Assembly (NCBI RefSeq): GCF_900496995.4
Contig: NC_044019.1
Coordinates: 6,731,501 to 6,795,500, forward strand
DNA: 64,000 nucleotides
Direction of reading: 5' to 3'
Origin: Aquila chrysaetos chrysaetos
Lineage: Eukaryota; Chordata; Aves; Accipitriformes; Accipitridae
The stretch's first letter is position 1, and every line of letters starts with the position of its first letter. The position numbers were made by a program, and so were the translations under genes. The notes below the pieces were generated by a model. The model saw only the letters and a program-made list of their open reading frames with translations. It did no database searches and was not told the origin of the DNA. Of the stretch, positions 17,016 through 58,918 are shown one piece after another.

Positions 17016-17069
17016 CTATGTCGCCTTCTCGTAGGTGCGGGTGGAGACGACGTTGCCCATGGTGAGAGT
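17016..17069 (-). CDS. FABP3: FABP3 exon 4 (C-terminus)
   Basis: Encodes [17 protein letters not shown] and the stop TAG (complement of 17016-17018). It carries the Arg-x-Tyr fatty-acid carboxylate contacts. The acceptor is CCACCAG at 17070; intron 3 is only 105 bp. Confidence 0.97.
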   Translation of the reverse strand, partial: TLTMGNVVSTRTYEKAT

Positions 17070-20000
17070 CTGGTGGCAGAAACGGTGGTGGGGAGGTTAG
17101 TTGTGCCGAGCCGGTGGAGCTCCCGGCTTGCCAGGCTGAACCCCTCTGATTTAAAACCATCTCTCTTTCCTTACCAGAATTAATTTCCCATCCTTCAGCT
17201 CCCGGACCAGCGATGTCTCCTTCCCATCCCACTTCTGCACGTGGATGAGTTTGCCTCCATCCAGCGTGACCTTGGACTGCAGGGAGAGAGCAAGACCTGC
17301 TGTTACCCTCCTCCCTGGGGTTTCTTGGCTCCTGGGGGCTTTGTCCCTTGGAGGGGACGATGCTGGGTGTCCTTGTGCTCGCCCAGGAGCCCCGTGGGGC
17401 TCAGGGACAGGTTGCAGGTGCCACCATCGGGACGCCCATCTGGCATCATCCCTCCTGACTTTGTCAGCTCAGTTCGGCACACGCCGGATCGTGCTCTGTC
17501 TGCTGGCTGGGTCACGGCCTCGGCTGCCCCCCCGGTAACCCCGCTGTGGGCACCGTCACGGTGACCCTGCCCTCCCTGACCCGGGGCCAGCACAGGGAGC
17601 CCTGCCCAGGGCCACATCCTGCTCTGGGGCTGCCGGGACCTGATCCTGGCCGCTCCCAAGCATGGCTCACCGCCTCGGGTGCTGGAGGGATCAAAGAGGT
17701 GGGGCAGTTATCAGTGCTTTGAACCGGAGAGCCTGGCAAGGGTTTTTGGAGGGGCCGATCCAGCAAACATGCCTCTGCTTGCCGGGGCCGCTGTTTGCAC
17801 AGCCGTTGCTGTTGACTCTGCCCCAAAAGCCTGGCCCTTGCCAAGGTTAGTGTGACAGCCGGCTGGGCACAGCCGTGGGGCAGCACGGTGCGGGGTTGTG
17901 CCGGGACAGGCAGCGGCACCGGCTGCCCGACCCCATTTCTGCCCCGTGCCCCCCACCCAGCTCCTCCACAGCCGGGTGCTGCCTTTCAGGTGCCCCCATG
18001 GCTCGGGTCTCCCCATAGCCCAGGTCCCCACAAGGTTTGGGTGCCCCCCGTGGCTCGGGGTCCCCCCCCCCAGAGCTCAGGTCTCCCCATAGCTGGGTTG
18101 TCCCCACTGCTCAGTGCCCCAGTAGCTTGGGTCCCCGCATGGCTTGGGTCCCCCCCAGCCAGGGTCTCTACACACCTTGGGTCTCCCCACAACTCAGCTC
18201 CCTGCACAGCTCGGGTTCCCCACAGCCCGGGACCCCACTCATCCCGGGTGCCCCACGACTCGGCGCACCCCACAGCGTGGCAGACCTGCCCCATCCCGTG
18301 CAGCCCCATGGCCCAGGCAGCCGTCCTGGCCCCCGCTGCCCTGTCGCGTGCCCTCTGGCCACCGGCCGAGGGGCGTCTGAAGGGCACGTCCCCGGGCTGC
18401 GGGCAGGAGCTCGCGGCAGGTCGTACGTCTCAAACTTGAACATAGTTTCCACCAGCTCCGGCGGGTCAGAGCGGCGGCAGTGCTGCAGGCAGGGCTGTGC
18501 TGCCCTGTATCTGCCCGGCACTACTGCCTTGCTCGCTCTTGTCCCCTTTCAGCCTGTCCTCGCTTTGTGCCCAGCCCTTGCGCTTGCTGCGTTGGGGTCG
18601 GGAAGGGGTTTTGTGTCCAATGAGCCCCAAGGTCCCCCCCTGAAGTGCCCCCGGGGCTGGGTGTGGGGCACAGAGCTGCCAGCTGCTCCATGCACAGCAG
18701 CTGGGAAACTAGGAAAAAGTAGGGGCTCGATCAATCCTGCAAGGGAAAATGTCTCTGCAGGATGGGAGAGGCCGTGAGAGAAGCTCTGACCTGTCTCGAG
18801 GTGTTTTTTTCCTTGCTTTTACAGGGAGGAACAGCCTGACCCGGGAGGTGTTGGCCTCCTCAGAGACCCCGGGGGAGGCATCAGCCCCTAGGGAGGCATG
18901 GGCCAGGCAGGATTGCCCAGCTGCTCCATCCCTGCCTGCAGAGCTGCCTGCTTTGTAGGGCAAGCCAAGAGAGGGCTCAACAAAGAGGTCTTGTGCCCTT
19001 CTCCCCCCGCCCCGGAGTGGGGACAACACTTGCTGCCACCCCACCACGTCCCCTTGCCTCCTCTTGAGCAAGCCCCTGGGCGGGCAGCTGGCATTTGCAA
19101 GCCTGGTTCTTGCACAACCTTCCCGGCAGCTCCAGGGCCCCGTGCTGCTCCCCGGGGGAAAACCCCGCTGCAAAATGGGGTGAGGTGGGGGGCCTTGGCT
19201 GGGTGAGACTGGGCTTGAGCACCAGCTCCAGCAGGCAAAGTGGTTTTACCCTTCCAAAGGCAAAAAGGATGGAGCCCCAGAGCCAAGAGCCGATGGCCAG
19301 ATTCAGTAGAGCCCGCAGACCCTTTTTTGGGGGTCTGACGCGGGGGGGGGACGGGGGCTGGGGGCTCACCTTGACGTGCCTGTCGTCCGCCGTGGTCTCG
19401 TCAAACTCCTCGCCCAGCTTGAAGCTGATCTCTGTGTTCTTGAAGGTGCTTTGGGTCTTCACTGTGATCTTGTCGCCCGCCACCTCGATGATGGTGGTGG
19501 GTTTGGTGAGGCTGGCCACCTGCCGGGTGGCGAAGCCCACCCCTGTGGGGTGCAAGGTGGGGGAGAGCTGAGGGTGCGTGGAGGGGCAGGATGCGGCTGT
19601 CAGCCTCTGGTCCCCCCCGGCATCACCCCGGCATCTTCCTCCCCGTGACGGTGGGGGGTGAACCCCAAAACTGCTCTCAAAAACTTGTGGTCCTGGGGGG
19701 CTTTATGTGTGCCCACAGCGCCTGGGGGGGCTCCAGGGCAGAGGCGGGGAGGGGCTGGCTGGGAACGCTTCCAGTGCTCGGTGCACTAGCACCCACCAGC
19801 TCCAGGGCTGGGCAGGGTGGGGGGGCACTGGTGTCACCCCCCACTCTGCCCGGACCACTCTTGGGTGGGGACCAGCCCTGCCCAGAAGCAGCGCAGGGGC
19901 TGGAGCTGGGTGATGGGGAGCTCCGGGGCTGGGGGGGGGAGGCTGAAAGGGTCCTGGGCGGCTCCCTGTGCCCCGGCGGGGGCATCCCCTCCCTCCGCCG

Positions 20001-20345
20001 AGGGCTGAGCCCCGAGGGGGGGGGGCAGGGGAAGGATGAGACCCCCCTTACCCCGCCCAAGCCCCCAGGCATAAAGCCCCAGAGCCCCCCATAAACCACC
20101 CTGCCCAGGCAGCAGCGACCCCCCCCCCCACCGCCTGCAGCCACCCCCAGCCAGACCCCCGTGTGCAGGGGGCTCGGCCAGGCAAATTGGGGGGTGGGGG
20201 GTGGTGGTAGAAAAAAAAGGGGGTGATGTCGTGACTCCAGCCCCCCCCCCCCCCGCAGACCCCCCCACTCACCCAATGCCTTCATGTACTCATCGAAATT
20301 GGCCGTATCCACCAGCTTCCAGGTGCCCAGGAAGGCGTCAACCAT
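17016..20345 (-). CDS. FABP3: FABP3, heart-type fatty-acid-binding protein, complete
   Basis: A cytosolic beta-barrel carrier of long-chain fatty acids in heart, muscle and brain. Coding exons on the minus strand are 20273-20345, 19370-19542, 17175-17276 and 17016-17069 (73, 173, 102 and 54 nt). This is the invariant four-exon FABP layout and gives 133 aa. It begins [20 protein letters not shown] and shows the FABP signature G-W-K-L-x-x-x-x-N-F-D-x-Y. The ligand residues Arg107, Arg127 and Tyr129 (Met = 1; R-T-Y near the C-terminus) are intact. Close identity to remembered human FABP3, including [20 protein letters not shown], separates it from FABP4, FABP5 and FABP7. The C-terminus is [20 protein letters not shown]17 converges from the left; a PKI gene in the same orientation lies 3.6 kb upstream. 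Confidence 0.97.
17175..17276 (-). CDS. FABP3: FABP3 exon 3
   Basis: 34 codons in phase 0: [20 protein letters not shown], then [14 protein letters not shown]. It includes Arg107. Acceptor CTGCAG at 17277, donor GTAAGG at 17174. Confidence 0.97.
17985..18300. repeat. Degenerate minisatellite in FABP3 intron 2
   Basis: Irregular repeats of about 20-33 bp built on the theme CCCCAYAGCTCGGGTSCCCC. They produce long, meaningless Pro/Ser/Gly-rich frames on both strands. Confidence 0.6.
19370..19542 (-). CDS. FABP3: FABP3 exon 2
   Basis: 173 nt. Begins [20 protein letters not shown] and ends [11 protein letters not shown]. Acceptor CCACAG at 19543, donor GTGAGC at 19369. It codes strands B-E of the barrel. 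Confidence 0.97.
20273..20345 (-). CDS. FABP3: FABP3 exon 1
   Basis: ATG is the complement of 20343-20345. 24 codons plus one base, then donor GTGAGT. It encodes the signature [20 protein letters not shown] followed by MKAL. The start is fixed by family length. Confidence 0.97.
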
Positions 20346-21924: not shown

Positions 21925-22610
21925 ACACGTATGACTGCCCACACACACGGACACCCACCCACAGGAGCACCCACACATGTGGACACCCATGCTGACAGAC
22001 ATGCACTCGTGCACATGAACATATATGCACACGGCCGCTCACGCACATGGACACCCACCTACAGGAACACCCATGCACGGGAGCACCCACACACACGGAC
22101 ACCCACCCACACCAGCACCCCCCACCCCAGACATCCCTGCAGACAGACACCCACCCACAGGAGCACCCATGCACATGGACACCCACCCACCCACAGAAGT
22201 TCCCATGAGTGTGGACACCCATGCTCACAGAGACCCACCATGCACATGGGTGCCCATGCACATGAACACCCATGCACACGGCTGCCCGTGCACATGGACA
22301 GCCACACACATGAACACCCACGCACATGGGTGAGCACCCATGCACATGGACACCCATGCTCACAGAGACTCACCCGCACAAATGGACACCCACCCACAGG
22401 AGCACCCATGCACATGGCCACCCCCCCTGCACACACATGCACGCTGACACCCATGTGCACAACACCCACGCACATGGATGCACAAAGGTGCCCACACATG
22501 TGGGTGCTCCATGCACAGAGGCATGCACGCAGACACCCATGCACATGCGTGTGCATGGACACACACGGATGCCCACCCACACGGATGCCCACCCACACAC
22601 GACGCTACGT
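21925..22610. repeat. Minisatellite of about 15-bp units (GGACACCCAC/GCACATG theme)
   Basis: About 690 bp of imperfect repeats such as GCACATGGACACCCAC and CACAGGAGCACCCATG. Because the unit is close to a multiple of three, it holds several frames open and creates a false 576-codon His/Thr/Pro-rich reading frame from 21,112. It lies 3' of the PKI gene. Confidence 0.9.
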
Positions 22611-23918: not shown

Positions 23919-24001
23919 TTAGGACGTGTCCTTCAGCTCGGGGCTGGGGGGCTGCGGAGGGGGCACCTCCGCCGAGGGCGACTGCATCTCCTGGGCGCTG
24001 C
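23919..24001 (-). CDS. PKI-family gene, coding exon 2
   Basis: Acceptor CTCGCAG at 24002. Begins in phase 1 (G|GC) and ends TAA at 23919-23921. It encodes GSAQEMQSPSAEVPPPQPPS, then PELKDTS: the variable acidic/proline tail. Confidence 0.85.
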
Positions 24002-24224
24002 CTGCGAGGAGAGACGAGGGTATGAGCCACTCTGGTTCCTGCCCGCCCCGTGTTGTCCCCCATCTTCCCCATCACCTACCTGCGTTCAGGGACATCTCGG
24101 CCAGCTTGAGGGGCAGGTCAGAGGGGCTGACGCCGGCCGGCGAGCCCAGGATGTCGGGCAGGGCATTGCGCCGGCCCGTTCTCCCAGAGGATGCGAAGTC
24201 CAGCACGGGTTCCACCTCGGTCAT
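23919..24224 (-). CDS. cAMP-dependent protein kinase inhibitor (PKI) family, apparent fourth paralogue
   Basis: A small heat-stable inhibitor that should bind the free PKA catalytic subunit as a pseudosubstrate and export it from the nucleus. Coding exons are 24080-24224 and 23919-24001 (145 + 83 nt), giving 75 aa; known PKIs have 76-78. Residues 1-20 read MTEVEPVLDFASSGRTGRRN. The pseudosubstrate core is F10, R15, R18, R19, N20, A21, with Leu in the P+1 position. The nuclear export signal is LPLKLAEMSL (residues 37-46). The tail is acidic and proline-rich (SPSAEVPPPQPPSPELKDTS). Compared with PKIA the N-terminus is one residue shorter and lacks the tyrosine before the Asp-Phe. RRNALPDI resembles PKIG (RRNAVPDI). 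The start is the only sensible ATG: GGTTAGC precedes it, right after an acceptor. Neighbours FABP3 and SERINC2 show it is not PKIA, PKIB or PKIG. Confidence 0.88.
24080..24224 (-). CDS. PKI-family gene, coding exon 1 (inhibitory region and NES)
   Basis: Acceptor CTCTCCAG before 24231, ATG at 24224-24222, donor GTAGGT at 24079. 48 codons plus one base carry the pseudosubstrate GRTGRRNA and the export signal, the conserved functional core. Confidence 0.9.
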
Positions 24225-24577
24225 GCTAACCCTGGAGAGACACGGGCCCCTCTGCGTCAGCACCGCTGGGCAAGGTGGCCCCCAGGCCCTGAGTGGGGAG
24301 GGTGGCTCTGGTCCAGGCAGGATGCTCTAGTTCAGGGCAGGCAGCATCCCCTGCCTGCAGCTGCCCAGGGAGCAAGGCTAAGCCCTCTACAATCCCCTCT
24401 GCCCACCCTGACTGCAGGCTCTCCAGGAGCAAAGGCACGGACCACCCTGCCCACGGGACTCCCCCGTCCCCAGCGTTGGCACCTTTGGGTGCCGGGATCT
24501 CTGCTGGTCACCGCATCATGGAGGAAGGGGGGTCCTCAGGGGTCCCGCTAGCACCCCCCCACCCCCAGCAGCCTTAC

Positions 24578-24733
24578 CGGGCACCCTCCAGCCTGGCCTG
24601 GCGCTGCGTCTCACCCGTGCCCAGGATCCTGCTCCACTCCCCGGCCTGGCGGTTCCCCCTCCCGATGTCTCCCAGCCAGTGAGGGACCCCACGGGAGACG
24701 GGGACTCCCGGCCGGGTCCCCTCCGGCTCCAGC
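24578..24733 (-). other. Candidate upstream exon of the PKI gene (156 nt)
   Basis: Acceptor GCTCTGCCTCCCCCAG ends at 24734 and donor CCCG|GTAAGG is at 24577. Spliced to the exon at 24231, its open frame continues into the PKI ATG (A-R-V-S-M-T-E-V), but it contains no ATG itself. It is most likely 5' UTR; a longer N-terminus is possible. Predicted by eye only. Confidence 0.4.
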
Positions 24734-25904: not shown

Positions 25905-26320
25905 GGCACACGTATGTGCATGTTTGCATGCATGACCTCTGGCTGGGCTGTTGTGTGTGAGCATACATGTACATGCAGCTGGAGCTGAGCCCCAGGGTGT
26001 GTATGTATGGTGCCCTCTGGTACACATGTGCATGCATGGTGTCCCATGGTACACGTATGTGCATGCTTGGCATCCCTTGGCACATGTGTGTGCATGCATG
26101 CTGCATTGTAGCACATGTGTGTGAATGCACGGAATCCCCTGGCACATGTGTGTGCATGTGTGGTGTCCCATGGTACATTTATGTGCATTCGCGGCATCCC
26201 CTGGCACATGTGTGTGCATGCATGGTGCATTGTGGCACATGCATGTGCATGCATGGCACTCCCTGGCACACATGCGTGCATGCCGTGTGCCCGGTATGCA
26301 CACAAGCACACGTGTGCACC
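25905..26320. repeat. Minisatellite of about 30-bp units
   Basis: About 13 imperfect units combine CCCNTGGCACATGTGTGTGC with ATGCATGG. The Z-prone TG/CA content and regular period make long Cys/His-rich false frames on both strands. Confidence 0.85.
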
Positions 26321-35800: not shown

Positions 35801-36650
35801 CCAGCTCCTGGGACCAAAGGGACCCAATCCAAGCATCTGCAGGGGCAACCTGCCAAAATAATGCCCTGAAGGCAATGAGGAGGGGTTGTCCCTGGGGAAG
35901 CCCTTTCCTCCCGAGAGGATGCTGCCCCAGGAGGAGTCACAAGATGAGCATGTCCCCCGCACAGAGCCGTGCTCAGCCCTGCGCCAGCTCTCCCTGCGAT
36001 CTCACTGCCTGGGGCCCCTGCAGCTTCCCGGGCCCAAAATCATCTGGGAAGATCTAATCCAAGAAGCTGAGGGCTGGAGCTGGGGAGGTTGGGGGCATCT
36101 GGGTAGCTGCAATGAGGATGGGGCAGGGTAGAAGGTGGAGGGGGCAGTGGTGACCCCAGGACCTGCCAGGAAGGAGGAGGCAGGTGGTTAAGGGGCCAGG
36201 GGTGGGTGCCAGGATGGACAGAGGTGCCACCACCATGGGGGTTGATCTGAAGTGCCCACCCTGAGATGGACGAGCTTTGCTTGGTGTCCGACTGCTGCTC
36301 ACGCTGATCCTCCCTAGAGCCACTTGCCCCCAGTGGGATGGGCACGGACCCCCCCAAGCTCTCGAGAGACACCCCACTGCCCTGCTCAGCACCGCAGCCT
36401 GCCGCAAAGTTTCATCCCCCCAAAACCCATCTGTCCACCGAGGCCACCGCCATCTCCTGAGCCTCCTGCCTCTCCCTTTGCTCCGATGTGCTGCCATGGA
36501 GGTGCCCAGGGCGGGCTCTCGCTTCCCAGGGCGGGCACCCAGTCCCCACGGCGGGCACCCTGTCCCCAGCACCCGTGAGCATAGGGCATCCACCGCCGTG
36601 GGCCAGGGCCTCGGTGCGACGATGTCCCCTGCACCCACCACCCATCAGCT
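26850..36650. other. Intergenic region between the PKI exons and the 37-kb CpG island
   Basis: No exon with protein similarity was found. Open frames up to 235 codons are chance frames in GC-rich DNA. It contains short direct repeats (30970-31015) and several AT-rich islands in GC-rich context (about 29240-29620, 31150-31290, 33685-33810) that could be conserved noncoding elements. If the 37-kb CpG island is the PKI promoter, this is its first intron. Confidence 0.6.
35585..35603 (+). repeat. C19 homopolymer
   Basis: A run of 19 C residues in noncoding DNA, equivalent to G19 on the minus strand. Confidence 0.9.
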
Positions 36651-36671
36651 GCTCACCTGGGCTCTGCTGGA

Positions 36672-36990
36672 GCCGGTGCCAACGTCGATACCAATGCCGA
36701 TACCGGTGCCGATGCCGGTGCCGGTGTCAATGCCCGTGTTGGTGCTGCTGCCGGTGTCGATGCCTGTGCCGGTGTTGACGTTGATACCGATGCCGGTGTT
36801 GCTGTCGGTATCGGTGTCGATGCTGCTGCTGATGTTGCTACGCGTGCCGGTGCCGATGCTGATGCCGGTGTCGGTGTCGATGGTGCCGGTGCCGGTGTCG
36901 GTGTTGATGTCGGTGCCGATGGTGCCGGTGCCGGTGTCGGTGCCGATGCCGGTGCCGGTGCCGGTGCCGGTGCCGATGGTGCCGGTGCCC
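36672..36990. repeat. Hexamer-based tandem repeat (GGTGCC/GATGCC variants)
   Basis: About 320 bp of degenerate 6- and 12-bp units such as GCCGGTGCCGGTGTCGATG. On the minus strand it gives a spurious Gly-Thr-Gly-Ile-type frame. It abuts the CpG island. Confidence 0.9.
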
Positions 36991-36994
36991 GCCG

Positions 36995-37450
36995 GGCGGG
37001 CGGGAGGAAGGATGCTCCGCGCTCGGCAGGAGCCCCGGGGAAGCCTCCGGCTCTCAGGCAGCCCTTGGGGCACCCGGGGCCGAGCCGCCCGCAGCCGCCC
37101 GCCCGCCCGCCCGCCCAACGCCGCCGCTCCCCGCCGCTCCCCCCGCCCGGCCCCCGCTCCGCGCGGGGGGACCCCCCCGCCGCCGCCGCCGCCGCCGCGC
37201 CGCCCCGCCCGCCGCCTCCCCCCGCCGCCGGGCTCTGCCGGGGGCTGCCGGGCCCCCCCGCCCCCTCCCCGCCGCCTGCCCGCCGGGGACCGTCCCCCCC
37301 TCCGCGGCCGGGGCCGCCCCGCAACGCCCCCCCCCCCCGCCCCGGGCTGGCCCCGCACTTGGTGGCTGCTGCTCCTCGCCGCGGGGCTGCCAGCCTGCCC
37401 GGCGGCTGTGTCTCCCCCCGCGCTGAGACATTTGGCGGGGGGGCTCTGAC
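36995..37450. promoter_or_regulatory. CpG island not assigned to a known gene
   Basis: Extremely GC-rich sequence with dense CpG, CCGCCCGCC boxes and many GC-box (CCCCGCCC) motifs, typical of a TATA-less promoter. The nearest coding starts are SERINC2 (12 kb right, with its own island) and the PKI gene (12.8 kb left, minus strand). A consensus minus-strand donor CCAG|GTGAGC lies at 36656. A distal PKI promoter or a lncRNA promoter are both possible. Confidence 0.6.
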
Positions 37451-37459
37451 ATCCCCACC

Positions 37460-40400
37460 CGGGGGCCCCTCTCCCCCCCCCCCCCCCCTCCGCCCCCTTA
37501 AGGCTCCATATGACATTGCCCTGCGATGAACTGAGACCACCCACCAGCTCGGACAGGGGGCTCGTAGCCCAGCATGGCCAGCAGCTCTGCTCGGAAAAAA
37601 AGTGCAAACCCCCACATTTCTTCTGAATTAGGGTTCCTGGCTGCGGGCCTGGGGAAGGAGCCCCATGGCCCCCGCGGGGGGGGGGGGGGTGAGGAGGGCT
37701 CTGCTCGCCCACTGGGACAGCTTGGCCCCAGCCCACACACCTCCTTGCGCATTTATTTCAGCCAAAAATAATTGCCAGGCTCAAAATCTTTGGAAAAAAT
37801 AATTTAGAAATATGTGGCTGCATCCCTATGGAATGTAGTGCCCAGGGTGGGGGGTGCAGGTGGGGAGGGGGGCTTGGGGACCCTGGATCCAGCTGGTAAA
37901 TCCGCCTGATCATGTCACAACCCCATGTTTTGCCCAGCACAAGGACTGTCCTCACTGGAGAAGGACGCAGGGCAGAGCCTGGGCGCAGGGCAAGATGCCG
38001 CCGTCTTGGCAGCCCAGGCTGCTCCTGGCCTGACACCAGCATCACCTTGAGGGGGGGACGCAGCCAACACCGAGCGTGTGTGATGGGGGTTCCCCACCCG
38101 CACCCCTGAGCTGGAGCAGAACAGGGAGGGAGGGCAGAGGCAGCGATGAACAGAGCCCCCCCCGCGTGAATTAAAAGCAACTCAAATTTGCACGCAGGAA
38201 TGGCAACCCACCCCCTTGGGCTGCCGCTGGTGTTCTTGCCTGTGTGTGCAACAGGGAAACAGCACAATTGCGGTGAGAGGCTCCGAAATGTCCCCTCCTG
38301 GCTCTCGAGGTGCACAGATGATGTCCCCAGGGCTGGGGAAGCGGGGTGCACCCGGGCGATGGAGTCCCTGCTCCCCTGGCCCTCCACCAGGATGCTGTTC
38401 CGGGCAGGAGTGGGGCTGGGCCCACATTCCCAGATTCCTAGCTCTGGCCATCTCTTCTCACTGCTGATGGTAAGGGGTGATGCTCAGCACCCAGAGCAAG
38501 GTGCCCATCCTGTCCCTTCCCCGAGGAAGCTCAGCACCGCCCGGGGCTTGTGGACCATGGGGAGAAGCTGGTGGCTGAGCCTGGCCCAGCAGTGGTTGCT
38601 GACCTGGGAAGGGCGATGCTTTCCTGACCTCTGCACCGGCCAGCAAGGCCAATTCGGACGTGCCTTGCAATGCCAGGGTTGTAGAGGGACAAGAGTCACT
38701 GAAGCAGCCAGGACTTGGCCGGTCTCAGCCCGATGCTTGTCTCCAGTACCCGCCGTACCCCCAACAGCTCGGGGCGGGGGGTGCTGGAGCCACTCGGCCC
38801 CACCAGCCAGCGGGAGGGACATTTATCCTGCCTGCTCGCTCAGGCGTGGTGATGGGCGACTGGCAGCTCCCGCGCGGCCAGCGGGGAGGAGAGCCTTCGC
38901 CAGCTGCTATTTTTAGCTCCTCACGCTCCGTTTTCTCCTTGACTGTCTCCCCTCTCTGGAGCAGTCTCGGGCCGAGCATCGGTGATGTTTATCCTGGCTG
39001 GCACCTGATCGGATGTGACACTGGCTGTCGCGGGTGGGGGGGATGGCTGCCATCCCTCTGCTCCGGGAAACGTGTGGGAGCAGGGGAGGAGATGTCGGGG
39101 GGACAGGGAGGGAGACAAGGGAAGCCCAGGGTGGTTGGGGAGGGTTCTGCTGGAGCACCCTGGGGAGGGTCTCCCTACCTCCAGCTCCTGGGTGCCCCCG
39201 AGGGATGGTCTGCCCTGGGAGAGCTGGGGGAGAGCTGCGGTGCGGTCCCCATTTCCACCTAGGCTGAATGCTTCCCTCTGCCAGTGTGATCCTTTGGGGA
39301 TGGCTGGGCTAGGGGAGCTGGGTAAACTGAGGCATGCAAGAAGTGTGCGAGTCCCTCCATGTTCAGTCAGTGCATTGCTGGCACCGAATAACCTCTCCAA
39401 ACCTGCCTGCATCCAGGACGTGGTAAGCATCAGGAGCCCAAACTCCCAGCTAAAGCTCGCAAAACTCTTGGGTACAAGCCCTGGCAATGCAAAAGCACGT
39501 CGGCATGGCAGCTGGGAAGGGAAAAATTATTCCCTTATCAGGCAGCACCTGTTCGGTGTTGGTACGGGGCAGTGCCGCGGTGCTTGGTGCTGTACTGACA
39601 CGGGAGCAAAGGTTGCTCTGCTGTTCCTCTGCTCTTTCAGTGCCTGCTCTCAGGCTTTGAAGACATTGAGATCCTCTTCCCAGAGTGTTCCTGGCAGGGT
39701 GAGTATCCCTGCTGATGGAGGACATAAAATATACTGTCGGTGCCCTCCCAAGTATCGGGTCAGCCCCTGCTTTATCCATCAGGGAGGTGAAACCAGCGAG
39801 GTCGGCGTCAGACCACTCCCTGCTCTGCCACTTGCTTTAAACCCTACTTTCTTCTAAAAAAAAAGGGTCCACAATAGGGAGGAAAAGGGCTCAGGAGAGT
39901 ATTTTCCTTCCGCTGCTGCTGCCAAGCTGCTTTATCCCACTTATGCAGGAAGGTCATTAAAAGCCACCAACTCTCGAGCTGCCGTAGGGCTGGGGCATCC
40001 CCCCGGGGATGGAAGCAGGGTCCCCCTCCCCAGGGGTGCAGACAGGGGAGGAGCAGGGTTGTTTTCCACTCGCCTGCCCAGTGCTGCAGGCTCTGTTCTG
40101 GGCTAAAAGTCACTTCTGAGGGAGAGCAGCACTTTGCTGTTCCTCTTTTAGACGTATCTTCCTAATTTCCAGCCCAGTTAAGACCCTGATTTCTCGCTGG
40201 GTACGTAGGTGACGTGGAGGAAAGGTTATTCCTGAGCTGAGCTCGCCCCTGGGCTGCGTCAGTCCCTCCGTTAAGGTGCTATTTTGGGACACGGGTCACA
40301 GGGTTTGGGGACCTGCAGGTTGCTCCCTGGCTGGGGACAGGAACTTTCCATCAGCCTGAGCTGGACATGGCCTTGGGGCCATCCCTGCATGGGGGGTACC

Positions 40401-46533: not shown

Positions 46534-48306
46534 TGTTGTCAAAGCCAGCAAGAGGGGCTGCTACAGGCGACAAGCGGAAGACTAGGGAAAATATGGGTCC
46601 ATTGCTCCATGAGATGGGAGACCTGGTGCCACAGGGCATGGGAAAGGCTAAGGAACTGAATGCCGCCTTTGCCTCTTTACCTGCAAGACCAATATTCAGG
46701 AATCCCAGGTCCCAGAGACCAAGGAGAAAGTCTGGAGCAAGGGAGACATACCCTTGGTAGAAGAGGATCAAGTCAGGGGATACTTAAGCAAACTGGACAT
46801 ACAAAAGTACCTGGACCCTGCTGGGATGCACCCACGAGTGCTGAGGGAGGTGGCTGATGTCATTGCGAGGCCACTCTCGACAACCTTTGATTGATCATGG
46901 CGACTAGGAGAAGAGCCTGAAGGCTGGAGGAAAGCAAATGTCACTCCTATCTTCAAGAAGGGCAAGGAGGACCCAGGGAACTATGGGCCTGCCAGCTGCA
47001 CCTCAATCCCTGGGAAGGTGATGGAGCAGCTAAACCTGGGAAGCATTTCCAGGCACATTAAGGATGAGAAGTCAGCATGGCTTCACTAAGGGCAAGACAT
47101 GCTTGGCCAACTTGATGAACTTCTACAGTGAAAAGACTGGCTTGGTAAACGAGGGGACAGCAGTGGGTATTGTCTACCAGGACTTCAGGAAGGCCTTTGA
47201 CACTGTCTCCCACAAGATCCTCACAGAGAAGCTGTTGATGCAGGTGGATGAGCAGACAGTGAGGTGGGTTGAAAACTGGCTGAATGACCAGGCCCAGGCG
47301 TGGTGATCTGTGGCACAAAGTCTAGTTGGAGACCAGTCACTAGTGGTGTACCCCAGGGGTCTGTACTGGGTCCAGTCCTGTTAAATATCTTCATTAACGA
47401 TCTGGATGATGGGGCAGAGTGTAGGCTCAGCAAGTTTGCAGATGACACCAAACTGGGAAGGGTGGCTGGTATAGCAGAGGTCATGCTGCCATCCAGAAGG
47501 ACCTCGTCAGGCTGGAAAAATGGGCTGACAGGAACCTCACGGACTTCAGTAAGGGGAAGGGCAAAGTCTTGCCCCTGGGGAAGTACAGCTCCAGGCACCG
47601 GCACATGCTGGGGGCCGCCCAGCTGAAAAGCAGCTTTGCAGAAAAGGACCTGGTAGACACCAGGTTGAACATGAGGCGGCAACATGCCCTTGCTGCAAAG
47701 GCGGCGAAGGGTGTCCTTGCCTGCATTAGGCAAAGCACTGCCAGCAGGTCGAGGGAGGTGATCCGGTGATCAGCACTGCTGAGGCCACACCTGGACTGCT
47801 GTGGCCAGTGCTGGGCTCCCCAGTACGAGAGACGTGGATGTACTGGAAAGAGTCCAACAAAGGGCCACGAAGGTGATGAAGGGACTGGAGCGCCTCACAT
47901 ATGAGGAAAGGCTGAGGGAGCTGGGACTGTTCAGCCTGGAGCAGAGAAGGCTCAGGGGGATCTCATCAACGTATGTAAATACCTGAAGAGAGGATGCAAA
48001 GAGGGCGGATCCAGCCGCTTTTCAGTGTTGCCCAGCGACAGGACCCGTGGCCGTGGGCACAAACTGAAACACAGGAGGGTCCCTCTGAACATCAGGAAAC
48101 ACTTTTTTTACTGTGAGGGTGCCCGAGCACTGGCACAGGTTGCCCAGGCAGGCTGTGGAGTCTCCATCCTTGGAGATATTCAAATGTCGTCTGGACATGG
48201 TCCTGGGCAACTGATTCTGGATGGCCCTGCTTGAGCAGGGGGGTTGGACCAGATGACCCCCAGAGGTCCCGGCCAGCCTCAGCCATGCTGTGATTTTGTG
48301 ATTCTG
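46534..48306 (+). mobile_element. CR1 LINE, 5'-truncated, reverse transcriptase broken
   Basis: A chicken-repeat-1 retrotransposon of about 1.77 kb in sense orientation. Successive frames encode pieces of the CR1 ORF2 reverse transcriptase: FRKAFDTVSHKIL (near 47,185), [19 protein letters not shown] (near 47,350) with FADDTKLG, and the C-terminal [20 protein letters not shown]. These lie in different frames separated by indels, so it is dead. The 3' end carries the CR1 hallmark GGTTGGACCAGATGACC and a terminal TGATTTTGTGATTCTG. The left border is approximate. Confidence 0.9.
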
Positions 48307-48559
48307 AGACGGTGGGTGGGCTGGAGCTGGTGGGCGTGCTGGACTTGTAGGACTTGATGGCCAGGAGTAGCCCAGCACTCTGCTCTTCCTGGGCCTCCAG
48401 CGCAGTCACTGACCCCACGTCTGCCCTCGGCAGCTCTCAGCAAAGTCACATCAGGCTGCACAAGCGGCATTCAATCACCAAAAATCCCAGGGCTTCATTA
48501 ATTTCTCTCCTGGAGCCGGGTGCCGGGTGACCCCAGGCTCCCTGCAGCACCCTCAGCTG

Positions 48560-49330
48560 CTCTGGGGACAGGCGGCGGGGGGGACCAGACCCCCGGACAC
48601 GGCCTTTCCAAGGGGACCCGGTTCACCGCGAACACACTCAAAACACCCCTCGGGACCCCGAGCTGCCTCCGAAGGCGCCGGGCCCTTCCCGCGGGCTGCT
48701 TCGAGGGGAAAGAAAGAGAGCCCCGGCGCTGCGGGCCTGGCCGTTCCTCCCCAGGGCCCCCGCTCCGGCCCGGGCCCACGGTGTCGGCGGGGTCCCCTCG
48801 GCGGTCAGCGGCGAAGGAGGGGCCGGGGCTGCCGCTCCCCCGGTCCGAGGGGCTCGGGGCGGCGGTGGAGGGGCTGCCCTGCGGTCGGGAGGGACCCGGG
48901 ACCCGCCCCCGCCGCCGCGGGGGCCGCCCCGGGGGGAGGCGCGGCGGGAGCGACGCGCCCGGAGCTCGGTGCCCCGGGGCCGGCCCGGGCGGAGCCAGCG
49001 CGGCGGCGGCGGAGGGGAGCGGGGAGCCGGCGGCAGCCGCGGCCGCACCATGGGGGCCTGTCTCGGCGTCTGCTCCCTGCTCAGCTGCGTGAGTGCCGGC
49101 CCGGGAGGGGAGCGGCGGCGGGGGGGGGGGACGGGACCGAGGCGGGGAGCGGGGCTGCGCCGGGTCCCAGCGCCGCAGCGGCGGGCGCGGCCCGGGGGCC
49201 GGGGAGCCGCTGCTGCCGGGGGTCCGGAGGAGGGTTCAGGGGAGGCCCGGGGAGGTCTGAGGGGCACCCCGGGGATGGGCCCCGGTACACCCGGGGGGGC
49301 GAAGGAGACGCGGGGGGGGGGGGGGCCCAA
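48560..49330. promoter_or_regulatory. SERINC2: CpG-island promoter of SERINC2
   Basis: Dense CpG sequence with GC boxes spans the SERINC2 first coding exon and about 500 bases upstream. No TATA box is visible, so initiation is probably dispersed, around 48.9-49.0 kb. Confidence 0.75.
49050..49088 (+). CDS. SERINC2: SERINC2 exon 1
   Basis: ATG in good Kozak context (GCACCATGG). 13 codons [13 protein letters not shown], donor GTGAGT at 49089, phase 0. The short first exon is typical of SERINC genes. Confidence 0.95.
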
Positions 49331-52300
49331 GGGAAGCCCGGAGGGTGCGCAGTGCCGCTCCCGGGGGGATGGAGGGGACCCCCGGGGCGATGGAGGGGAC
49401 CCCCGGAGCAGGGCATCCCACTGCACCCGGGGGTGCGCAGGGGAGACCCAGAGCGGACCCCAGTGCGCTTGGGGAATGTGGGGAGCTGGAGGAGTGATGC
49501 CCCCCTGCACCTGGGGGAGTGGGGGGGTCCTGGTCGCCCTGCCCTGATACACTGGGGGGGGGTCCAGTCCTGCTGCACCCATGCAATGCTGAGGGGCCGG
49601 GGGTCCTGCCCGGTTCTCACTGCCGAGCCCCAAAGCGGGGGGCTGGGGATGGAGTAAGAGCAGGGATGAGGGGGTGCAGGTCCGTGGGTGGGGGAGGCTC
49701 TGCGTGGGGTGCCGTGGCCCAGGGAGGGTGCAGGGTGCGTGATTCGGGGTGCCGTGCCCGGTGATGCAGGGTGCGTGATTCGGGGTGCCGTGCCCGGTGA
49801 TGCAGGGTGCATGCTTCAGCGTGCCGTGCCCGGTGACGCGGCGGCTGCCCACGGCCGGCGTTGCCTGCCCTGGCGTTGCCTCACCTGCGGGCACGGGGCC
49901 AGGGCAGGGCTGTGAGACCAACCCGAGAGCCGCTGGCCTGGAAACCTGGAAATGGGGCCAGTTTTGCAACTTGACCTCAAAGTTTTGGAGGTTTAACGAA
50001 CCGGAGCTTTTGAAATGTAAGATCGGACGGAGGGCGGTCTGCAAGGCCTCCGTCTGTAACACGTCCGGTATTTTTTCTTATGGGCAGGTATCGGAAAAGC
50101 TGGGAGTTACTCTGGAGCAGGGCTGGGGAGGTTTCTGGCCTAGTTCTGGATTTTTTCCCCAAAAAACCTATTCTGGCCCAGGCCATGGTAACAGGATAGA
50201 GTTGCTATACAGGTTTAGTTCTCTTATTCTTTCCAGTGGGGCTGGTTGGCTAAAGGGGTGTTTTAGCTCAATTCTGAACTGAAAAACCACAACAGGGGAA
50301 AAAAAAACCACCCCCCAAACCAAACAAAACCTTCAATCTTTGTATTTTTTTTAATTTTTAACAAGAAAATCTGAACTAAGTCCTTCTGGTCAGCCTGCAT
50401 CATTTGACTCAAAGCAGCATCAGATTGTCAAGCCATCTCTTCAGCACTGTCCCGTTAAAACTCTACAAGCTGTTCCTGAGTGAAACTTTGCACCATCTGA
50501 GAAAAAATTTCCCTTTCTCTGCCTCCAGTGATTTGCCAGGCTGCCCACCGCCGCCACGAGCAGCGCGGTGGTCTCGAGCTGCCTTCCTTGCGGGACAGGG
50601 TTGGTGTTTGCCAGCAGAAGCTTGCCCAAGCTAAAGCAAACCCCAGGGGCAAGTGCAGCCCTCTGGCATGGTTTGGGCACCTCATGGGGACTATCAGCCT
50701 CGTTGTACCAATGCAAAGCCACCTGCCAGACGTGAGAGCCACCAGCCTCCCGAGCCTGTGCCTGATCCCGTGGGTTTGGTACTGATTAACCTGCCGGGTT
50801 ATTCATTTAACAGGAGATAAAGACTGGTTGCTCGGCATTGCTTTTGGTTGACTCAGTCTCTGCCTCCCTGGGTTTGCTGGGGCGAGGGCAGCTTGCAGAA
50901 GATGTGGTGTTGGGCTGGTAGTGTTGGGCTGGTGTGGTTGGGCTGTTGTTAGGCTGGTGTAGTTGAGCTGGTGTAGTTGCACTGGTGTTGTTTGGGCGGT
51001 GGTGTTGGTTGGTGTAGTTGGGCTGGTGTAGTTGGGTTCATGTTGTTCCATTTCCCTGGGTTGGACTGGGTGGACAGTACTTGTCCGGCTCCAGCCACGC
51101 TCTCCTAGTCACCAGGCAGGGGAGGCACAGCAGCCCTTACCTGCAAGTCGCACTGGAGGTGAGCTGGATTTAATGAGGAAGTTGACAGCGAAACTGGAGA
51201 GGTTAATCTTTCATCTGCAGCAGCTGAAAACCGATGCTTCCTCATTAATCCACCGCTCTCATGCTGCAGCCACTTCCCTCGGTTGGCTTTTTCCATCCTG
51301 CTGTTTGGCCGTTGGCCATGTTCATACTTATGGGCATCTTTGAAAGTCTTTGAAATGAGGTGTATCAAAGGGTGTCCAGTGCTGCCTTAACATGGGAGGA
51401 TTTTCCCTGCTCTTAACCCATTTGCTTTTTAAAGAGAAAGACTGAATTCAAGAGGTGCCCGGGCAGCAGGTCAGGTTAGCACATGGCACAAGGGATCTGC
51501 TTCCTTTGCAAAGGTGCTTAGAGGGGGATACCCAAGAAGGGCACCAGAAGTCATGAAAAAAGGCACCGGGTGACACGCGACTCTCACATTACTGCTGCAC
51601 AAAGCAGGTCAGCAGAACTGGGCTGCTGTACCCCATTACCTTGGCAGTTGCCCTCCCATGGTTGCAAAAGGCTGTAAAACCTGAAATATTGCTATGGAGC
51701 TTGGCCCTCTAAGAGTCATCCTTGAAAATAAACCTCCGGCAGGCTCCAGGGTTGCTGTGGGCTCCCCAAAACCTCATACTAGAAACTACCTCATCCACCT
51801 GCAGCTTTCCCAGAGGTCAACCACAGGGTTTGGAGGCTGCACGTGGAGCAAGGATTTCCTTCAGCCCAGCTCCATCCTGGCCCTGTGGACACCCCTGCAC
51901 CCCCATCCACCTGCACCGACCCTGGGGAAAACGTGACACCCAAGCCTGTGCCTCCTGCAAGCCTTCAGTGGTGTTTGGATGGGAGGCTGAACCCTCAAAT
52001 CCAACAACCTCCTAAACAACAGCCAACCTCAGGATTTTCCAGGCTGGTTTCAGTGCTTTTAGGACGGGTGCTTTTTGTTTCAGTTGGCACTGAAAGGAGA
52101 GGAGCTGGAGGTATTGATGTGCTTAAAGTTAAGGGTGCACTAAGGTGCTTTGCTAGGTCAGGTGAAGTAATGCAGTAATTCTGCCTTAAAAGGGATTTTT
52201 GTTGTTCTCTTTTTTTTATTAGAAGGGGAAATACGGTAGTGGTGGCACATTTAAATGCATTCTTGTGCAAGTGGTGCATTTAATGAGCCTGAAAGGAAGC

Positions 52301-54966: not shown

Positions 54967-57900
54967 ATAATAATATTTATTTTCCCCCCTTCCTTTTCTG
55001 TCCTATTAAAACTGTCTTTATCTCAACCCACGAGTTTTACTTTTTTTTCCCCCAATTCTGTCCCCCATCCCACTGGGTTGGGGGGGAGTGAGTGAGTGGC
55101 TGCATGGTGCTTAATTGCTGGCTGGGGTTAAACCATGGCACTGTATTGGATTGGAAAGGCAGCCTTAAATTATTTTACAAGCTCATTTTATTTGGTAAAG
55201 AAAAGAAGCTCTGCAGGGCAGTGCTTTGTTTGGACCAGAGCCCTTTTTTGCATGCAATTGCTGGGGAGCTAAAAAGAAGATGAGGGTGTCTCCCAGACTC
55301 TTGGTGTCATTTTCCAAGTTGGTTGGTTATTACAGTGAACCCATTCCCGTGGCTTTTTTGGTTTTCAGCAACTTTTTGGGGGGATTTGGGGCCATTTCCA
55401 TGAGGTCCCGCAGGGTACAGGTTGCAATGCTGGCTGGCGAGAAGCTCTAAGCAAAGCCCCTGGTGCAGTGGTGTGGATTGCTGGGCAGTTCTCCTTACGG
55501 TTCGACCTGGGCACGTGTTTTGGGGACAATTTTGACCCCTCCGATGCAGCGATGCTCTCATTGCAGGTGTCCTGTCTCTGCGGCTCTGCGCCATGCCTGC
55601 TGTGCGGCTGCTGCCCCTCGGCCAAGAACTCCACTGTCTCGCGCCTCCTCTTCACCTTCTTCCTCTTCCTCGGCACCCTTGTGTCCATCATTATGATAAT
55701 CCCTGGCGTGGAGAAGGAGCTGCACAAGGTAAATAACTCCTGGAGGTCCTGGGCCTGTTCACCACGGGGAAGAGGTTTAACTCGTGGCGGGTACATGAGG
55801 CTGAATCAGAAAGTGAATTTTTGAGGCATGATGTTGCTTCTGTTCCTTTTTTTCTGAGCATCTCGCTGGGAGAGGGTGTTATTAACCCCATCTTTCCACA
55901 GAAGGGAAAATGCAGTGGGATAATTTCATGCATTATCTAGTTTGCCCAGATGTCTCCCAGGAAAGTTTCCTACATCCTGTTTTTGGGGTTCCACTGGCCA
56001 AGTGACTTGCAAGTCATGGAGGTGGGACTTCAGATGCAGGGAGCTGAGGTCTGCCGGCTGAGCTAATGCGAAGGCTGGGCTAGGGTTTTTGGGAAATGCT
56101 GGTTTCATCCCAGCTTTCCACTGACCTGCAGGGTGGCTTTAGCTGTGTCACCCCACCACTGTCCCCAAGAAGGCCAACTGCTTGCTTTATGGGTGGCAGT
56201 GGAGCAATCATGGGCTGGCCCATCTTTGGTGGCACCAGGGCTCGCGGTGGGTGCGGGATGCTGGGGTGATGTTCACCCTCCCGTCGCCTTTGCAGCTCCC
56301 TGGCTTCTGTGAAGGCAGCGGGTCAGTCCTGGGGGTCCAGACCCACGTCGACTGCAGCAGCTTCCTGGGCCACAAAGCCGTGTACCGCATGGGCTTCGCC
56401 ATGGCCGCCTTCTTCTTCCTCTTCGCTCTGCTCATGGTGTGCGTGCGCAGCAGCAAGGACCCGCGAGCCGCCGTGCAGAACGGGTGAGCGTTCGTCCCTG
56501 GGGGGGGATGCTGGTGTGGGGAAGGGCTAGCCCCCCTCTTCCCCGCTGGCTTCCTGCTTGCAGACCGTGCCTCCTCTCTCCTGCCACAGCTTCTGGTTCT
56601 TCAAGTTCCTGGTGCTGGTGGGGATCACGGTGGGGGCCTTCTACATCCCTGACGGTGCCTTCACCTCAGGTGAGGAGCTGCCCGCACTGTCCTCTGCATC
56701 TCTGGGTTAACCCTCAGCACAGGATCAAACCTGGCGCTGGAGCTGGCATCCCTGCTGCCACGTGCCCCATTGCCAAATTCCCATTTTCCCTGCTCTTAAC
56801 TGGTTTTTCTCTTCCCCTCAAGTCTGGTTTTACTTTGGTGTGGTTGGCTCCTTCCTCTTCATCCTCATCCAGCTTGTCCTCCTCATCGACTTCGCCCACT
56901 CCTGGAGCCAGCTGTGGCTGCACAATGCGGGCGAGAGCAATGCCAAGGGCTGGTACGCAGGTTGGTACGGCTGGCACTGCAGAGGGTTTAGGGATGGGAA
57001 GCTCATCCTGGGGGTGGGTGACACTGAGCTCATGGAGACTCGGGCTCTGCTCCAGCCTCGTTCCTTTTTGCTTTCTCCCCCAGCTCTTTGCATCATCACC
57101 TTCATCTTCTATGCCACCTCCATTGCGGCCATAGTGCTGCTCTACATCTACTACACCAAGCCTGAGGGTTGCACGGAGGGCAAGGTCCTCATCAGCATCA
57201 ACCTCATCCTCTGCCTCATCATCTCTGCTGTGTCCATACTGCCCAAGATCCAGGTGAGGCGGCGGGGGGGCACCTGGGAGGCTGGTGGCCATGACACCGC
57301 GGGGTACACGACCAGCCCTGAGCATCCGCCGTTGCGTTTGCAGGATGCTCAGCCGCACTCGGGGCTGCTGCAGGCGTCCCTCATCACCCTCTACACCATC
57401 TACGTCACCTGGTCCGCCCTGGCCAATGTACCAAGTAAGCAGGATGCGGCCTCGGGTTCGGGAGGGGGGTGCACAGGGCAGGACCACACGCTGGGTGGTT
57501 GCTTTGCACCCCTGGGTCTCTGGGGGCTGAGGAAAGGTGCTGAACTCCCTACACGTCCTCCCCAGCCCAGACCTGTAACCCCACGCTGCTGGTGAGGAAC
57601 AGCACCGGCTCGGCGACAGCCACCCAGCCGCTGACAACCTGGTGGGATGCCCCGAGCATTGTGGGGCTGATAATCTTCATCCTCTGCACCCTCTTCATCA
57701 GGTGAGGACTTGGCTCATGTCCCCAGGGACTGCACTGTCCCTCTGCCTGCCCACAGCAGAGAGGCATCGGGAGACTTTTAGGGAAAGACAATGCTGGAGG
57801 GGAGGTCGCAACTTGGTCCAGGGTTTTTGTCACTAAGTGCCTCTTGCAAAGCCGTCCCGGTCCCCAGGGACACAGGCAGGCTGCCCTGAGGGGTTGTGGG

Positions 57901-58918
57901 TGCAGCTTTTAGGGTTTCCGCACAAGCTGCATCCCGCAAACTGCCCTGCCTGTCCTGGGGATGGCCCCACTCGGGCTGGGGGCAGCCGAGGAGGCAGTGG
58001 GCAGGCAGCCCTGAGCCTGCTCTCCCTCTGCCTGCAGCGTCCGCTCCTCGGACCACCCGCAGGTCAACAAGCTGATGTTGACGGAGGAAAGTGCGGCCGG
58101 GGCGGGCGGCGAGGCGGCGGCCGTGGAGAGCGGGCTGCACCGTGCCTATGACAACGAGCAGGATGGCGTGTCCTACAACTACACCTTCTTCCACCTCTGC
58201 CTCCTCCTTGCTGCCCTCTACATCATGATGACCCTCACCAACTGGTACAGGTGGGCAGAACTCCCGTGGGGACCGGGGACTGTCCCCCTTCCTCTGCATC
58301 CACTTCTCCTGGTGTCCTCCCTGCTCTTGCGCTGGGCAGAGCTGTTTGCTGAGATGTGTCTGTGTGCAAGCCCACTTAATGTGCACCCTAATCATGTTAA
58401 TTATTTCTAGGTAGCATAGGGCTGCCTGTGGCAGGTTGTGCCTGGGCTCACCATCTGTCTACTGCAGCATCTTCTGGTGCAGCCCAGGATCCCTTGGGAC
58501 ATGGGGCGAGCAGGGACCCAGCCCATGGGGTGCTGTAGGCTGCAGCGGTGGGGTCACATCCCCTGGGTGAGCTGCAGGCAGCTGCGCGGCTGCCGGGAGC
58601 TGCGTGGCTGCAGGCACGGGGCTCCTCCGCTCTCTCCTCCATGCTCTTTGCATTGCACCCGTGGCTCGGTGCTCGCAGCCTCCATCCTTCTCCAGCGCAG
58701 TTGCTGCCCGCCGTGCTCGCCGTGCCACCCTGCAGGCGCAGCACAGTGATGGGTGCCGCCTGCTCGTTTGCTGTTTCAGGCCGGATGAGAGCTTGCGGGT
58801 GCTGACGAGCCCCTGGACGGCCGTGTGGGTGAAGATCTGCTCCAGCTGGGCCGGGCTCCTGCTCTACCTCTGGACGTTGGTGGCTCCGCTGGTGCTGCCG
58901 AACCGAGACTTCAGCTAA
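49050..58918 (+). CDS. SERINC2: SERINC2, serine incorporator 2, complete
   Basis: A multipass membrane protein of the SERINC/TMS1 family, proposed to help serine enter phosphatidylserine and sphingolipids; some relatives scramble lipids. Ten coding exons: 49050-49088, 55567-55728, 56296-56483, 56590-56669, 56823-56960, 57084-57253, 57344-57434, 57566-57701, 58038-58250, 58780-58918. They total 1356 nt (451 aa; human about 455) with all phases consistent. It starts [14 protein letters not shown] cysteine-rich N-terminus is followed by about ten hydrophobic segments, the family phrases [20 protein letters not shown] and [13 protein letters not shown], the loop [12 protein letters not shown] and the end [12 protein letters not shown]-glycosylation sequons at N34 and N301. 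The cytosolic loop before YDNEQDGV is Ala/Gly-rich and lacks the glutamine run I recall in human. Paralogues SERINC1/3/5 fit less well. Confidence 0.97.
49730..49837 (+). repeat. 36-bp tandem repeat, three copies
   Basis: Three adjacent units beginning GCAGGGTGCGTGATTCGGGG; the third unit has a few substitutions. Located at the start of SERINC2 intron 1. Confidence 0.9.
50908..51045. repeat. Minisatellite, GTTGGGCTGGTGTA units
   Basis: About nine imperfect units of 12-16 bp on the theme TTGGGCTGGTGTAG in SERINC2 intron 1. The opposite strand gives a false Thr/Pro/Asn-rich frame. Confidence 0.85.
54451..54487 (+). repeat. MIR-like SINE core fragment
   Basis: CTGTGCCTCAGTTTCCCCAC followed by CTGTAAAGTGG matches the conserved 3' part of MIR (CTGTGCCTCAGTTTCCTCAT). 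Confidence 0.5.
54560..55140 (+). mobile_element. Solo LTR of an avian endogenous retrovirus (581 bp)
   Basis: It begins TGTCCTGGTTTTGGCTGG and ends GGTTAAACCATGGCA (TG...CA). It is flanked by a perfect 5-bp target duplication CTGTA at 54555-54559 and 55141-55145. Inside, in order: a CRE-like TGATGTCA (54817-54824), TATATAA (54833-54839), an expanded TTA tract and ATTAAA (55005-55010), the U3-R-U5 layout. I recognise it as an abundant avian ERV LTR; a 5-bp duplication suggests an ERVL-type relative. No internal viral genes remain, so it arose by LTR-LTR recombination. It lies sense in SERINC2 intron 1, 426 bp before exon 2. Confidence 0.92.
54912..54973 (+). repeat. (TTA)n microsatellite inside the LTR
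   Basis: Near-perfect trinucleotide TAT/TTA repeat about 18 units long, then ATA units. It is an expansion of the AT-rich tract normal in this LTR. Confidence 0.95.
55567..55728 (+). CDS. SERINC2: SERINC2 exon 2
   Basis: 54 codons, residues 14-67: a cysteine-rich segment [14 protein letters not shown], sequon N34, then a first membrane helix (about residues 40-60, [19 protein letters not shown]). Acceptor TTGCAG, donor GTAAAT. Confidence 0.96.
56296..56483 (+). CDS. SERINC2: SERINC2 exon 3
   Basis: Residues 68-130: a lumenal/extracellular loop with conserved cysteines (FCEG..., HVDC), then helix 2 ([19 protein letters not shown]) and the [13 protein letters not shown] loop. Acceptor TTTGCAG, donor GTGAGC. 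Confidence 0.96.
56590..56669 (+). CDS. SERINC2: SERINC2 exon 4
   Basis: Residues 131-156: [20 protein letters not shown] then DGAFTS, a strongly conserved family segment. Acceptor GCCACAG, donor GTGAGG. Confidence 0.96.
56823..56960 (+). CDS. SERINC2: SERINC2 exon 5
   Basis: Residues 157-202: [20 protein letters not shown] then LIDFAHSW, a membrane helix plus the conserved IDFAHSW. Acceptor CCTCAAG, donor GTTGGT (weak but frame-required). Confidence 0.95.
57084..57253 (+). CDS. SERINC2: SERINC2 exon 6
   Basis: Residues 203-259: two helices ([20 protein letters not shown] and [16 protein letters not shown]) separated by [12 protein letters not shown]. Acceptor CCCCCAG, donor GTGAGG. Confidence 0.96.
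57344..57434 (+). CDS. SERINC2: SERINC2 exon 7
   Basis: Residues 260-289: [20 protein letters not shown] then [10 protein letters not shown]. Acceptor TTTGCAG, donor GTAAGC. Confidence 0.96.
57566..57701 (+). CDS. SERINC2: SERINC2 exon 8
   Basis: Residues 290-334: a variable loop with CNPT and sequon N301, then [20 protein letters not shown]. Acceptor CCCCAG, donor GTGAGG. Confidence 0.95.
58038..58250 (+). CDS. SERINC2: SERINC2 exon 9
   Basis: Residues 335-405: [14 protein letters not shown], an Ala/Gly-rich variable loop, the conserved [20 protein letters not shown], and the helix ending TNWY. Acceptor CTGCAG, donor GTGGGC. Confidence 0.96.
58780..58918 (+). CDS. SERINC2: SERINC2 exon 10 (C-terminus)
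   Basis: Residues 406-451 with TAA at 58916-58918: [20 protein letters not shown] then [20 protein letters not shown] and PNRDFS. Acceptor TTTCAG at 58779. Confidence 0.96.

Follow-up and report, generated by a model that had tools for sequence, protein, structure and literature searches.

A two-exon PKI gene beside FABP3

The window, the whole 64,000-nucleotide stretch of Aquila chrysaetos chrysaetos DNA analysed here, holds a small minus-strand gene of the PKI family ("window PKI") between FABP3 and a Serinc-family gene (Table 1). We take the latter to be SERINC2 from its position; the names SERINC1, 2 and 3 follow human maps, and our analysis identifies the family alone. The two coding exons of window PKI join in phase 1 into a spliced frame of 228 bases, which encodes 75 residues and a stop without any internal stop codon. 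The original prediction had described two in-phase exons encoding 75 residues at this position between FABP3 and a Serinc gene, and both parts of that description held, with coordinates and junctions right to the base.

A Pfam-A scan of the protein gave one match, to PKI (PF02827; 74.2 bits with the cut-off at 25, E 1e-20, residues 2–62 of 75), and exon 1 alone scored 69.5 bits in a PKI profile search of the genome. Alignment with PKIA shows the same distance of 11 residues between Phe10 and Ala21, and the predicted export signal, L37-x3-L41-x2-M44-x-L46, agrees with that of PKIA in both its internal spacing and its distance from Ala21. The intron sits just past this signal, at the family's place. 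The profile match, the R-x-G-R-R-N-A motif with its Ala and the Phe at −11, the putative export signal and the phase-1 intron place window PKI within the PKI family (PF02827), and the Pfam match and PKIA alignment bear out the earlier reading of a GRTGRRNA pseudosubstrate, an upstream Phe, a leucine-rich signal and PKI architecture. By sequence, the protein also matched solved structures of PKIA (3wyg, E 1.2e-8) and of PKI peptides (1cmk; 1apm, which is PKI(5-24)), entries that we take to show these proteins bound to export factors and to PKA. Over all 75 residues, window PKI is 97% identical to a hornbill protein that is already annotated (P0003); this identity and the E-values exclude chance. 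Tails similar to exon 2 are seen in relatives of window PKI among the matches listed.

Table 1. Positions within the window of the PKI gene, its parts and its neighbours.
Feature	Position	Strand	Remarks
FABP3	17025..20345	−	three exon stretches placed, at 20345, 19543 and 17282 downwards; best PDB matches heart FABP
Coding exon 2, window PKI	23919..24001	−	proline-rich tail, end SPELKDTS, TAA stop
Intron, window PKI	24002..24079	−	78 bases, GT-AG, phase 1, acceptor CTCGCAG
Coding exon 1, window PKI	24080..24224	−	ATG to phase-1 donor GTAGGTGAT; holds inhibitory segment and leucine-rich export signal
Leucine-rich export signal LPLKLAEMSL (predicted), window PKI	24087..24116	−	L-x3-L-x2-M-x-L; PKIA spacing
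Pseudosubstrate GRTGRRNA, window PKI	24162..24185	−	Ala replaces the phosphorylated residue; R−6, G−4, R−3, R−2, N−1 and A0 each in 120/120 relatives listed
Phe10 codon, window PKI	24195..24197	−	11 residues ahead of the pseudosubstrate Ala; Phe in 120/120 relatives listed
Start of ATG exon, 5' untranslated part, window PKI	24225..24231	−	after acceptor CTCTCCAG; agrees with the join in P0005 and P0006
Probable 5' untranslated exon, window PKI	24578..24733	−	donor GTAAGG; upstream end inferred from an AG only
Serinc-family gene	56143..58407	+	range of three open frames holding exons; Pfam Serinc in 3/4 frames scanned; PDB serine incorporator 3

Two diverged tandem arrays flank window PKI, at 21944–22427 (units of about 32/68) and 26013–26283 (31/62/124 bases). 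Between the PKI and Serinc genes lie two CpG-rich stretches, 36001–38000 and 48001–50000 (GC 0.69 and 0.71; CpG ratio 0.61 and 0.64), which are candidate promoters of these two genes.

Indirect evidence for a spliced transcript

The related sequences P0005 and P0006 read QARLEGAR ahead of VSMTEVEP, and in the window their join coincides exactly with two splice sites, a donor at 24577 that follows an exon ending at 24578 and an acceptor ahead of 24231. The P0005 extension aligns to window positions 24735–24577 with 46% identity (E 2e-4) and a gap. Both coding exons are read without the intron in 9 of the 15 listed relatives that are sourced solely from 'lgn' (P0005, P0006, P0018, P0032, P0047, P0052, P0098, P0118 and P0122), and the longest contigs of these nine measure 0.9 to 4.2 kb; the remaining six run into or end in the intron or past exon 1, like genomic DNA. 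Our reading is that the 'lgn' sequences are assemblies of raw sequencing runs. They provide good, if indirect, evidence that a spliced transcript of window PKI carrying an untranslated 5' exon exists in related birds. The concern that the gene might lack transcription or selection, raised with the original prediction, finds no support in these intron-free two-exon frames on short contigs or in the strong conservation of the protein.

Several bird models and open frames (P0010, P0013–P0015, P0017, P0019, P0022 and P0023; 96 to 109 residues) run on through all or part of the short intron, and database versions of the gene therefore carry a false mid-protein insert. The Aquila chrysaetos model P0054 has an alternative end that matches window 23150–23025 (−), 3' of window PKI, at 95%; this end is probably a false exon.

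Conservation and predicted function

A protein search with window PKI returned 290 matches, of which the best 120, 101 of them named, were examined. The relatives were aligned on GRRNA, which all 120 hold. Unchanged in 120/120 are Phe −11, Arg −6, Gly −4, Arg −3/−2, Asn −1, Ala 0 and Leu-Pro-Asp at +1 to +3, and the export-signal positions are nearly as constant, with Leu +16 in 118, Leu +20 in 118, Met/Leu +23 in 117 and Leu/Ile +25 in 114; all these figures are biased upward because the 120 are the best-scoring of the 290. Some of the departures in the export signal arise where a gene model omits the end of exon 1 or gets it wrong.

Window PKI is 80% identical to its basking shark relative over 74 residues and 89% identical in the exon-1 part. 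The values for PKIB of the loon are 67% (79% in the exon-1 part) against great white shark PKIB and 72% (81%) against that of Heterodontus. Sharks and birds have been separate for more than 400 million years, and protein conservation over such a span, used here in place of dN/dS, implies purifying selection on window PKI.

PKIA carries a Tyr at −14, which helps binding. In window PKI this residue is Val, as it is in 117 of the 120 listed relatives and also in bird PKIB. Having Val at −14 as bird PKIB does, rather than the Tyr of PKIA, window PKI might be guessed to have an affinity more like that of PKIB than that of PKIA. The Val in place of Tyr, taken with the fact that many relatives share a distinctive C-terminal end (SPELKDTS or a close variant), could also be read as a sign that the protein no longer usefully inhibits PKA and is kept for some other role, which might lie in CRM1-dependent transport or depend on its tail. 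We consider this improbable: Phe −11, Arg −6, Arg −3, Arg −2, Asn −1 and Ala 0 have not changed in a single listed relative, and bird PKIB has the same Val yet its isoform is counted as an inhibitor in the review PMC7723848.

According to that review, PKI enters the nucleus and binds the free catalytic subunit; the export signal of PKI is then uncovered, and the complex exits via CRM1 (PMC7723848). The near-invariant motifs of window PKI suggest that it too would inhibit PKA and promote nuclear export. The substrate groove of the PKA catalytic subunit would receive the N-terminal segment of window PKI, Phe10 filling a hydrophobic pocket and the arginines the basic-residue sites; Ala21, standing where a substrate has Ser or Thr, would block the kinase. 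Binding would expose the L37–L46 signal, and the complex may then leave the nucleus through CRM1.

Four PKI loci in one genome

When the assembly that contains the window (1.23 Gb in 144 contigs) was searched with the PKI profile, 7/7 candidates were scored and four PKI matches emerged: one PKIA-like on contig C4, one PKIB-like on C2, one PKIG-like on C3, and window PKI itself on C16. At all four loci exon 1 reads as ending in phase 1 where the sequences align, and exon 2 could be placed for window PKI, PKIB and PKIG. The intron measures 78 bases in window PKI, about 4.4 kb in PKIB and 1.1–1.2 kb in PKIG.

Synteny was read in this one genome at the window PKI, PKIB and PKIG loci. At the PKIB locus (200 kb examined), FABP exons with best PDB matches to brain FABP lie at C2:54,047,555–54,045,938 (−), PKIB runs from 54,066,318 to 54,061,718 (−), and Serinc exons follow at 54,149,035–54,156,478 (+). 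The order and orientation FABP(−)/PKI(−)/SERINC(+) are thus identical at the window (FABP3) and PKIB (FABP7) loci. At the PKIG locus (50 kb upstream examined), Serinc exons at C3:11,251,032–11,245,206 (−) stand head to head with PKIG at 11,283,740 (+). A duplicated neighbour set in the same order, as expected of ohnologues, is accordingly found as FABP-PKI-Serinc at two loci and as PKI-Serinc at a third. Since such a repeated block is what whole-genome duplication leaves, window PKI is the expected copy beside FABP3. We conclude that it arose by an ancient duplication shared with the FABP3/FABP7 and SERINC genes, with PKIB as its nearest relative, and most likely it is the copy of PKIB produced by the whole-genome duplications early in vertebrate history.

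Distribution and naming

Among the best 120 of the 290 matches, relatives of window PKI come from birds, crocodile, turtles, tuatara, lizards, snakes, frogs, axolotl (a salamander) and lungfish, and from bichir, sturgeon kin, many teleosts, sharks and a ray. The names in this set do not include coelacanth, gar, bowfin, chimaeras or caecilians. A gene found from sharks to lizards, with gene models under sister names, does not fit the earlier suggestion that birds retained it while other lineages lost it or lack an annotation for it. The labels of these relatives (P0003–P0122) are 'alpha-like', 'beta-like', 'beta', 'IPKA', 'IPKB', uncharacterised or nothing useful, with si:ch211-255i3.4 in cichlids, and the (shortened) names of the best 120 of the 290 include no label for a separate fourth PKI. 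We read the database rows under alpha, beta and si:ch211-255i3.4 labels as the same gene as window PKI; 24 were placed in the tree with it.

Teleost copies are often labelled 'inhibitor beta', and PKIB is the nearest paralogue, which could mean that window PKI is PKIB under another name and that there is one gene rather than two. However, at least 21 species (counted by eye) are named in both the window PKI and the PKIB matches listed, with different proteins, and so the two are separate genes; in the eagle assembly, moreover, they coexist on C16 and C2, each with FABP and Serinc neighbours of its own. We regard the single-gene reading as extremely unlikely.

No mammal is named among the 101 named relatives in the best 120 of the 290 window PKI matches. 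The database does cover mammals: the PKIA/PKIG search matched echidna, rodent, muntjac and wombat proteins. The best 120 of the 319 matches to PKIB likewise name no mammal though mammals do have PKIB, so the lack of mammals in the window PKI set argues only weakly for loss. For the same reason the case for loss comes mainly from the literature: three PKI isoforms are counted in the review PMC7723848. The window PKI gene may have been lost in mammals, a possibility that these searches probe only weakly.

Phylogeny of the PKI family

The tree set consisted of 66 of the 360 proteins found, hand-picked to be mainly named, two-exon sequences from a wide range of species, together with the four sequences of the eagle genome, aligned over 77 columns. 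Its 70 rows represent the window PKI gene (25), PKIB (25), PKIA (13) and PKIG (7). Window PKI and relatives from 24 other species, ranging from sharks to birds, form one clade with support of 100/99, and PKIA and PKIG part from the window PKI gene and PKIB together at 100/100. In a tree of PKIB and the window PKI gene only, the two separate with 100/100 support and each side contains cartilaginous fishes, so that the split seems to predate the jawed-vertebrate crown.

Rooting on PKIA and PKIG failed to yield reciprocal PKIB and window PKI clades. Once PKIA is included, whether or not PKIG is present, PKIB forms one clade in 0/200 bootstrap trees because shark PKIB falls outside and the window PKI gene inside. 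An AU test does not reject a single PKIB clade (p 0.316; p 0.304 without PKIG). PKIA is itself not one clade when PKIG is included (AU p 0.434) and becomes one, at 100/100, without PKIG. The alignment is short, at 77 columns, and does not fix the root inside the pair of PKIB and the window PKI gene. The tree alone would also allow window PKI to have arisen within PKIB before the jawed-vertebrate crown, so the reading as a genome-duplication copy leans on synteny.

Orthology of window PKI with PKIB itself was rejected: window PKI belongs to its own clade (100/99) and neighbours FABP3, and PKIB lies elsewhere by FABP7. PKIB itself is not one clade in the trees that contain PKIA. The clade and the genome search also sustain the original view of a distinct fourth paralogue, one that falls neither inside PKIA, PKIB or PKIG nor at their loci.

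Alternatively, birds might have acquired the gene recently by retroposition or tandem duplication of PKIB or PKIA, and it might be a pseudogene. The identity of 62% to loon PKIB over 71 aligned residues (77% in the exon-1 part) might seem to favour such a copy, but window PKI has an intron at the family's place, stands on another chromosome-scale contig and groups with sharks, fish, frogs and reptiles at 100/99, and its frame is intact with the core residues conserved. Tree, intron and locus, and a distribution wider than birds, led us to reject the recent-copy and pseudogene readings, whose probability we put at close to nil.

A fourth vertebrate PKI gene

We consider it highly probable that window PKI is a fourth vertebrate PKI gene, most likely the copy of PKIB left by early-vertebrate genome duplication, and that sharks, bony fishes, amphibians and reptiles (birds among them) have retained it. 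With somewhat less assurance, we think it likely that jawed vertebrates inherited four PKI genes, that the fourth, whose inhibitory segment has hardly changed between sharks and birds, was lost toward mammals, and that the three-isoform picture is a mammalian simplification. If so, mammalian tissues must cover the role of the fourth PKI with PKIB or go without it.

PKA inhibitor peptides derive from PKI, itself a classic PKA regulator. A fourth member retained all the way from sharks to birds would alter the number of genes in the family, and would explain the mixed 'alpha-like/beta-like' annotation across many species. For work in fish, frog and chick, it would mean that removal of PKIA, PKIB and PKIG may still leave an inhibitor; mammals, if they do not have the gene, would offer a natural experiment on the role of each isoform. 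A small search of the open literature found no description of a fourth PKI gene, and we tentatively regard it as undescribed there; the gene is certainly in databases, as unnamed or misnamed models.

Comparison with PKIB, PKIA and PKIG

PKIB is the closest counterpart of window PKI. The two share the arrangement of two coding exons with a phase-1 intron, the GRRNALPDILGSPAG core, the SDLPxKLAE signal (in birds), and flanking FABP(−) and Serinc(+) genes in the same order. They differ in that PKIB lies by FABP7 rather than FABP3 and has another tail, and identity is 62% (loon PKIB, 71 residues); bird PKIB also starts MTDVEPVVTDF, with one residue more before the Phe than window PKI. PKIA has the identical GRTGRRNA pseudosubstrate and export-signal spacing, whereas its overall identity is 45% (penguin PKIA, 73 residues) and it carries Tyr at −14 and His at +2 in place of the Val and Pro of window PKI. 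PKIG shares the family architecture, the phase-1 intron and a head-to-head Serinc neighbour, but identity falls to 37% (sea-eagle PKIG, 68 residues) and the PKIG branch in the tree is long.
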